Below, in pieces: positions 41,526-42,199 of a stretch of DNA of 42,199 bases (position 1 is its first letter; every line of letters starts with the position of its first letter). The notes beneath the pieces are model-generated. The model was not told the DNA's origin. It saw only the letters and a program-made list of their open reading frames with translations, and did not search any database. Position numbers and translations under genes: made by a program. Origin of the DNA: Candidatus Sumerlaeia bacterium (lineage in GTDB: Bacteria; Sumerlaeota; Sumerlaeia; JABWBI01). Location: positions 1 to 42,199 of the forward strand of contig JABWBI010000005.1 in assembly GCA_013360565.1 (NCBI GenBank), given 5' to 3'.

Positions 41526-42080
41526 TCACACGAACTCACGGAACAGCTCCGCCCGTGGCCGGGGAATCACCACTCGCGCCACGAGAAGGCCCTTGCGGGA
41601 AGCTGCCGCCGCCCCCTCCTCCACGGCGGCTCGGACAGCCGAGACTTCGCCTGTGACCTGGACGTAGCCTTTGCCGCCGATGGCCATGGCCAAGTAGACG
41701 CGAAAGAGGGTCACATCGCCGGCTTTGACGGCCGCGTCCGCCGCCTCGACCGCCGCCGCGGCGCTGAACGTCTCAATCACCCCCATGGCCCCCACCTGCG
41801 AGGCGTCGAGCGCGACGCTCTGGCCAATGGCGGGGAAGACCGACGGATGGATGCTGGGGATGATGATGTGGTCGATCAACCCTTCGCGTGCCGTGTCGAC
41901 TCCGGCCCCAACAGCGGCTTGGATGGCCCCGGTGTCCCCCTTGACCATCACCGCGAACTTGCCCGAGCAAATGGTGCGGGCCATCAGCAGCTCCACTGCA
42001 CCGCTCTTGAGCATCGCATCCTCGACCTCATGGCCGATCGCGATCGAGGTCAGCTCGACCATTCCAATCGAGTCAGACAT
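41526..42080 (-). CDS. Bacterial microcompartment BMC-T shell protein (tandem BMC domains), PduT-like
   Basis: SIGMVELTSIAIGHEVEDAMLKSGAVELLMARTICSGKFAVMVKGDTGAIQAAV and second domain VGAMGVIETFSAAAAVEAADAAVKAGDVTLFRVYLAMAIGGKGYVQVTGEVSAVRAAVEEGAAAASRKGLLVARVVIPRPRAEL. Start MSD at 42080 with GGGAGGG SD. Confidence 0.95.
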   Translation of the reverse strand: MSDSIGMVELTSIAIGHEVEDAMLKSGAVELLMARTICSGKFAVMVKGDTGAIQAAVGAGVDTAREGLIDHIIIPSIHPSVFPAIGQSVALDASQVGAMGVIETFSAAAAVEAADAAVKAGDVTLFRVYLAMAIGGKGYVQVTGEVSAVRAAVEEGAAAASRKGLLVARVVIPRPRAELFREFV

Positions 42081-42101
42081 CACCATCCCTCCCTGCTGGT
42101 C

Positions 42102-42199
42102 TCATCGCTCAATCACCACCACACTGCCGCCGGCGGCCACGACCCTGCCGCCGATGCTGGCGTGGATCGGTGCGCCGAGCGCGTTGGGGGCCACGCGCC
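42102..42199 (-). CDS. C-terminal fragment of probable PduS/RnfC-like protein (partial)
   Basis: Reverse reading in-frame to TGA: RVAPNALGAPIHASIGGRVVAAGGSVVVIER*; matches the barrel-sandwich tail LGAxIHASIxGxV of PduS/RnfC family. Confidence 0.6.
   Translation of the reverse strand, partial: RVAPNALGAPIHASIGGRVVAAGGSVVVIER

Follow-up and report, generated by a model that had tools for sequence, protein, structure and literature searches.

The window, the whole analysed stretch of 42,199 nucleotides, belongs to a Sumerlaeota MAG (G000; 3.33 Mb, 422 contigs, 82% complete). The DNA is GC-rich, and genes were called with a composition-based caller. On the reverse strand at the end of the window lie a complete gene for a bacterial microcompartment (BMC) shell protein and the end of a second gene upstream of it. 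The rest of this second gene was found on another contig, C224. The features are as follows.

41526-42086, reverse strand: PduT-like BMC-T shell protein, with two PF00936 domains and matching PDB entries 3pac and 3n79 by sequence and fold
41556-41789, reverse strand: second BMC domain (PF00936, E 1.6e-22)
41853-42071, reverse strand: first BMC domain (PF00936, E 1.2e-20)
41967-41969, reverse strand: codon of the predicted [4Fe-4S] cysteine, Cys38 counted from the MSD start or Cys40 from the MVM start, from the alignment (39/39 homologs)
42087-42104, reverse strand: 18-base spacer between the stop codon of pduS and the ATG (MVM) of pduT, with a Shine-Dalgarno-like GGGAGGG, read from the sequence
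42105-42199, reverse strand: 3' end of a pduS-like gene, barrel-sandwich domain, colinear with the PduS C-termini of relatives
G000:C224:2461-3681: 5' part of pduS, whose frame continues into the window across a 6-bp overlap

The open reading frame 41526-42086 encodes a two-domain BMC shell protein related to PduT. It is 186 amino acids long from the MVM start and 184 from the MSD start (MSDSIGM) at 42080; the latter is equally backed by the Shine-Dalgarno-like GGGAGGG, and the two starts are equally likely. In Pfam the whole frame matches PF00936 as two fused domains (E 7e-43). The best PDB sequence matches are the PduT structures 3pac (1e-49) and 3n79 (2e-48), with about 50% identity to PduT of solved structure. 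An AlphaFold2 monomer model built on 39 homologs has a mean pLDDT of 90.9, and Foldseek places 3pac and 3n79 on top of its matches (TM 0.82-0.85). The same-family genome G001 contains a match with 78% identity. The sequence-only reading, which had taken the tandem-BMC protein for a PduT relative, is borne out by these domain, sequence and fold matches. The best NCBIfam model is eut_PduT, but its score of 123 bits is under the cut-off of 250, and thus the protein is a relative rather than the ethanolamine or propanediol equivalog.

The Cys, Gly and Lys of the C-x-G-K motif are invariant in all 39 aligned homologs, which come from many phyla. The cysteine of ARTICSGKF aligns with a cysteine of 3pac and stands opposite a serine of 3n79, which by its PDB title is a C38S mutant. 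Hence the earlier placement of Cys38 at the position of the PduT cluster cysteine holds. The pore cysteine of PduT has been described together with its motif C-[PSA]-G-[KRS]-[YF] (PMC6325248), and the window sequence CSGKF fits this motif. Since Cys38 aligns with this pore cysteine, it is predicted to lie at the three-fold axis of the trimer.

The upstream frame ends in ...LGAPIHASIGGRVVAAGGSVVVIER*, with the stop codon 18 bases ahead of the MVM start. In 14 relatives, a PduS-type protein encoded immediately upstream of PduT has a C-terminus that matches this tail, and the corresponding segment of the full-length relatives is the RnfC barrel-sandwich domain, PF13375. The 30-residue tail alone had no significant match in Pfam; a DUF1330 match (E 0.21) was set aside. 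A search of the window's own genome for PduS recovered residues 3-402 at the extreme end of contig C224. The last six bases of this contig match the end of the window, and the joined frame is gapless relative to PduS of G001, so that the join rests on a 6-bp overlap and homology. As the copy of the window is split over two contigs, domains were scanned in the full-length proteins of G004 and G001. Both contain PF01512, PF10531, PF13534 and PF13375 (Complex1_51K, SLBB, Fer4_17 and RnfC_N), the same four Pfam domains that are given for PduS in PMC6325248. From this homology, the tail is the end of PduS, and pduS and pduT form a two-gene unit, as had been proposed from the window alone.

The suggestion that the signature enzymes lie just beyond position 42199 was not supported. 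Upstream of pduS, contig C224 encodes a response regulator, an RHS-like protein and a TPR-like fragment (named by eye), and no BMC genes were found in the approximately 3.7 kb past the window. The other shell genes and the genes for an aldehyde dehydrogenase (AldDh) and for DeoC, a deoxyribose-phosphate aldolase of the PF01791 type, are on separate contigs of the same genome. In the relatives, too, the pair is isolated: no BMC neighbours were observed in G001, G004, G007, G010, G019 and G024. Among these, G004 is assembled in one contig. There the pair stands alone, the shell genes occupy six sites, and DeoC and AldDh are found at two more; these two and the other shell genes are hundreds of kilobases away from the pair:

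91 kb: PduS-PduT pair
586 kb: BMC-H and flavoprotein
673 kb: DeoC
875 kb: BMC-H2
906 kb: BMC-P
1143 kb: AldDh
1162 kb: BMC-P
2850 kb: BMC-P

We analysed 39 genomes of the class, of which 24 contain BMC-domain genes and 15 do not, counts that are limited by MAG incompleteness. PduS (E<1e-60) and PduT are jointly present or jointly absent in all 39, being present in 16. BMC-P (PF03319) was found in 20/20 genomes searched, with three genes in 19 of them, including G000 (contig C74). PduL was not found in G000, G001, G004 and G007. In G019, a phosphotransacetylase-like gene (identified by eye; L069:9650-10684) is co-oriented with PduT, two genes further downstream, and is a possible CoA-recycling partner. 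PduS-PduT pairs that stand apart from other BMC genes, with none in about 10 kb, were also observed in KSB1 and Gemmatimonadota MAGs (L031:8659-10549, L042:8614-10549).

One closely related AldDh (E<1e-120) is present in all 24 genomes with BMC-domain genes and in none of the 15 others; a partial copy was seen in G036, where no shell gene was found. Wherever the AldDh locus was readable (17 cases), the N-terminus carries a helix that follows the pattern I..IV(E/D)EVV.RL and resembles encapsulation peptides. A similar helix is found in an N-terminal extension of DeoC, about 55-80 residues ahead of the aldolase domain. Of the 24 genomes with BMC-domain genes, 17 encode this tagged DeoC, compared with 2 of the 15 that lack such genes (Fisher p 8e-4, shared ancestry ignored). 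In the window's genome it is encoded at C114:2476-3489, two genes upstream of a shell gene, and the order is the same in G001. Tagged DeoC genes with no shell gene found occur in G036 (C161, L252) and G037 (C274, L253), whose genomes are 80% and 84% complete; these may reflect missing contigs or a relic.

The helices were also scored with a weight matrix, a heuristic trained only on the AldDh N-termini. AldDh, DeoC, PduL and a flavoprotein of family PF02441 were among the best of 540 neighbouring proteins; the top 30 also hold unrelated proteins, and the DeoC scores are weak in G026, G028, G032 and G035. The flavoprotein with the encapsulation-peptide-like N-terminus (L081:7407-8225, L159:9721-10506) adjoins BMC-H1 in G004 and G001. 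A fusion of flavoprotein and DeoC was observed in G039 (L084:3-1298), and another is probable in G056 (L172:50-1480). Homology between the fused domain and the separate flavoprotein of G004 is weak but detectable (E 1e-5). The PF02441 flavoprotein is a possible cargo enzyme.

In G039, which belongs to another class of the same phylum, a single locus contains the flavoprotein-DeoC fusion, BMC-P, RpiB, PduT, PduS, AldDh, BMC-H and PduL. G056, from outside the phylum, falls between the two arrangements: RpiB, AldDh and BMC-H are encoded together with a long DeoC protein, and the PduS-PduT pair and a BMC-P triplet are on other contigs. RpiB (PF02502), identified by eye in the G039 locus, was found 5 kb from BMC-H2 in G004.

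A class II aldolase was considered as a signature enzyme and rejected, since it was not seen beside the dispersed shell genes that were read; it occurs in the compact loci of G009 and two Acidobacteria MAGs. Two such loci (L153:4781-11554 and L027:1583-10549, from G009 and an Acidobacteria MAG) encode the class II aldolase, AldDh, acetate kinase, PduL and BMC-H/P. In the Acidobacteria MAG, a divergently oriented PduS-PduT pair lies alongside, and its PduT is 62% identical to that of the window.

The tagged DeoC and the redox pair do not always occur together. Twelve of the 16 genomes with PduS-PduT have the tagged DeoC, and it was not seen in the other four (G008, G010, G016, G018); hence the module is not exclusive to DeoC. 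Conversely, G013, G028, G029, G032 and G035 have tagged DeoC and AldDh without PduS and PduT, which suggests that the electron outlet is optional and lies outside the core.

The dispersed shell genes include one with three fused BMC domains. In the window's genome it is split between G000:C114:4839-5337 and G000:C22:1-410 (L075, L076), a join that rests on a 12-bp overlap of the contig ends and homology. Intact homologs are found at L074:5567-6439 and L068:10007-10888, the copy of G001 being 290 amino acids long, and the protein is conserved in genomes of three families. Between G001 and G007, domains of equal position share 51-59% identity, whereas across positions the identity is mostly 40-48%. 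Thus the three-domain fusion is older than the divergence of these families. No PF00936 protein other than this one was found in G028, G032 and G035. By our inference, two such chains could form one hexagon. No description of a naturally occurring triple-BMC shell protein came up in literature phrase searches, which does not prove novelty.

On balance, we favour the interpretation that PduS-PduT is the redox module of a dispersed, FRAG-type BMC with a core of DeoC and AldDh, and that it exports electrons from NADH. The pair of the window would then probably carry electrons out of a compartment whose genes are scattered over the genome and which would break down the sugar of DNA. The gene identities, the conserved Cys, the isolated position of the pair and the joint occurrence of shell genes, AldDh and tagged DeoC are observed, whereas encapsulation, substrate and electron direction are what we infer here. 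Both DeoC and AldDh would be encapsulated through their candidate N-terminal helices, and their reactions are established for the two families. DeoC would split deoxyribose-5-phosphate, freeing acetaldehyde inside the shell, and AldDh would convert the acetaldehyde into acetyl-CoA, with formation of NADH. Other metabolosomes re-oxidise NADH by alcohol dehydrogenase. In the proposed scheme, PduT-like trimers would be part of the shell, with Cys38 holding a [4Fe-4S] cluster in the pore. PduS, a putative flavin and Fe-S NADH oxidase with relatives in RnfC and complex I, would attach to the shell from the inside. The internal NADH would be re-oxidised by PduS-PduT, the electrons passing through the shell to the cytosol and NAD+ being regenerated. 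This last step is proposed because NADH oxidation and PduT binding have both been described for Citrobacter PduS (PMC2982820), and the PduT cluster, with a reported potential of +99 mV, could accept the electrons (PMC6325248).

One alternative is that the pair is a part of an ordinary clustered PDU, EUT or GRM locus with the signature enzymes just past the contig end, and that PduS reduces cobalamin or feeds a glycyl-radical activase. Indeed, GRM loci often contain PduS, which in PDU BMCs is a corrin reductase (PMC2982820, PMC6325248). However, the genes that continue on C224 are of another kind, the pair has no BMC neighbours in the six genomes named above, and in the compact locus of G039 both PduS and PduT accompany DeoC and RpiB. 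We therefore regard a clustered locus as improbable. A search of 39 genomes for PduC (PF02286) gave no matches, and its positive control likewise gave none.

It is also conceivable, although unlikely, that the pair is part of the dispersed BMC yet imports electrons, or that it works with some other flavoenzyme inside the shell, for example the tagged PF02441 flavoprotein. The position of that protein next to BMC-H1 and its fusion to DeoC, observed in G039 and probable in G056, would fit such a role, and the direction of the PduS-PduT flow is not known (PMC6325248). On the other hand, the potential of the PduT cluster suits taking electrons from NADH (PMC6325248), and the proposed chemistry yields NADH with no clear need of imported electrons. 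Least probable is that the pair is a relic or a decoration of the shell with no redox role. About a third of the class genomes with BMC-domain genes do lack the pair, but the invariant C-x-G-K residues in homologs from many phyla, the strict co-occurrence of PduS and PduT in the class, and the retention of isolated pairs in KSB1 and Gemmatimonadota MAGs all argue against this.

The interpretation as an electron outlet of a dispersed DeoC-AldDh compartment can be compared with known systems. The shell protein shares with PduT of Salmonella and Citrobacter (3n79, 3pac) the two-domain BMC-T fold, about half of its residues, the TIC-x-GK motif and the adjoining pduS; unlike these, it is encoded outside any pdu operon and falls short of the eut_PduT cut-off. 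The upstream gene resembles PduS/RnfC-like NADH oxidoreductases, the relatives having the FMN domain, SLBB, the double 4Fe-4S domain and the C-terminal RnfC barrel-sandwich, of which the window contains the C-terminal end. In contrast to PduS systems, a B12-dependent signature enzyme may be lacking here, to judge by the genome context. Judging by sequence and gene context, we assign neither relative to a PDU or EUT system.

In FRAG BMCs, the shell genes are dispersed and include a BMC-P triplet, and FRAG1-7 have AldDh and no obvious signature enzyme (Sutter 2021, PMC8217296). The compartment described here shares the many separate shell-gene sites, the triplet and AldDh, but differs in that a candidate signature enzyme, DeoC with its encapsulation-peptide-like helix, and a redox pair can be named. 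With SPU BMCs (Axen 2014, PMC4207490; Sutter 2021) it has in common the proposed DeoC and AldDh chemistry. PduS occurs in some SPU loci and was noted there as unexplained (Axen 2014, PMC4207490), and a compact SPU-like locus that includes both PduS and PduT is found in G039, a member of the same phylum. In contrast to SPU, the genes are dispersed in the class of the window and PduL is often missing. Thus the predicted compartment would work like SPU but is not classed as SPU, because its genes are not in a single locus and RpiB is at most a candidate member. A text search for compartments in a Sumerlaeota genome paper (PMC8092238) found nothing.

More tentatively, and with somewhat less than even confidence, we suggest that the FRAG compartments of Sumerlaeota may be deoxyribose-phosphate metabolosomes without B12 or radical chemistry, in which PduS-PduT would serve purely as a wire from NADH to the outside; one sub-lineage may have facets of the triple-BMC protein, with two chains per hexagon. 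The function of FRAG compartments becomes testable, as DeoC with its candidate encapsulation peptide is a concrete aldehyde-producing enzyme candidate in one phylum. The same is true of the role of PduS and PduT in the absence of a B12-dependent or glycyl-radical enzyme: with a core of an aldolase and AldDh, the re-oxidation of NADH would be left as their natural job.
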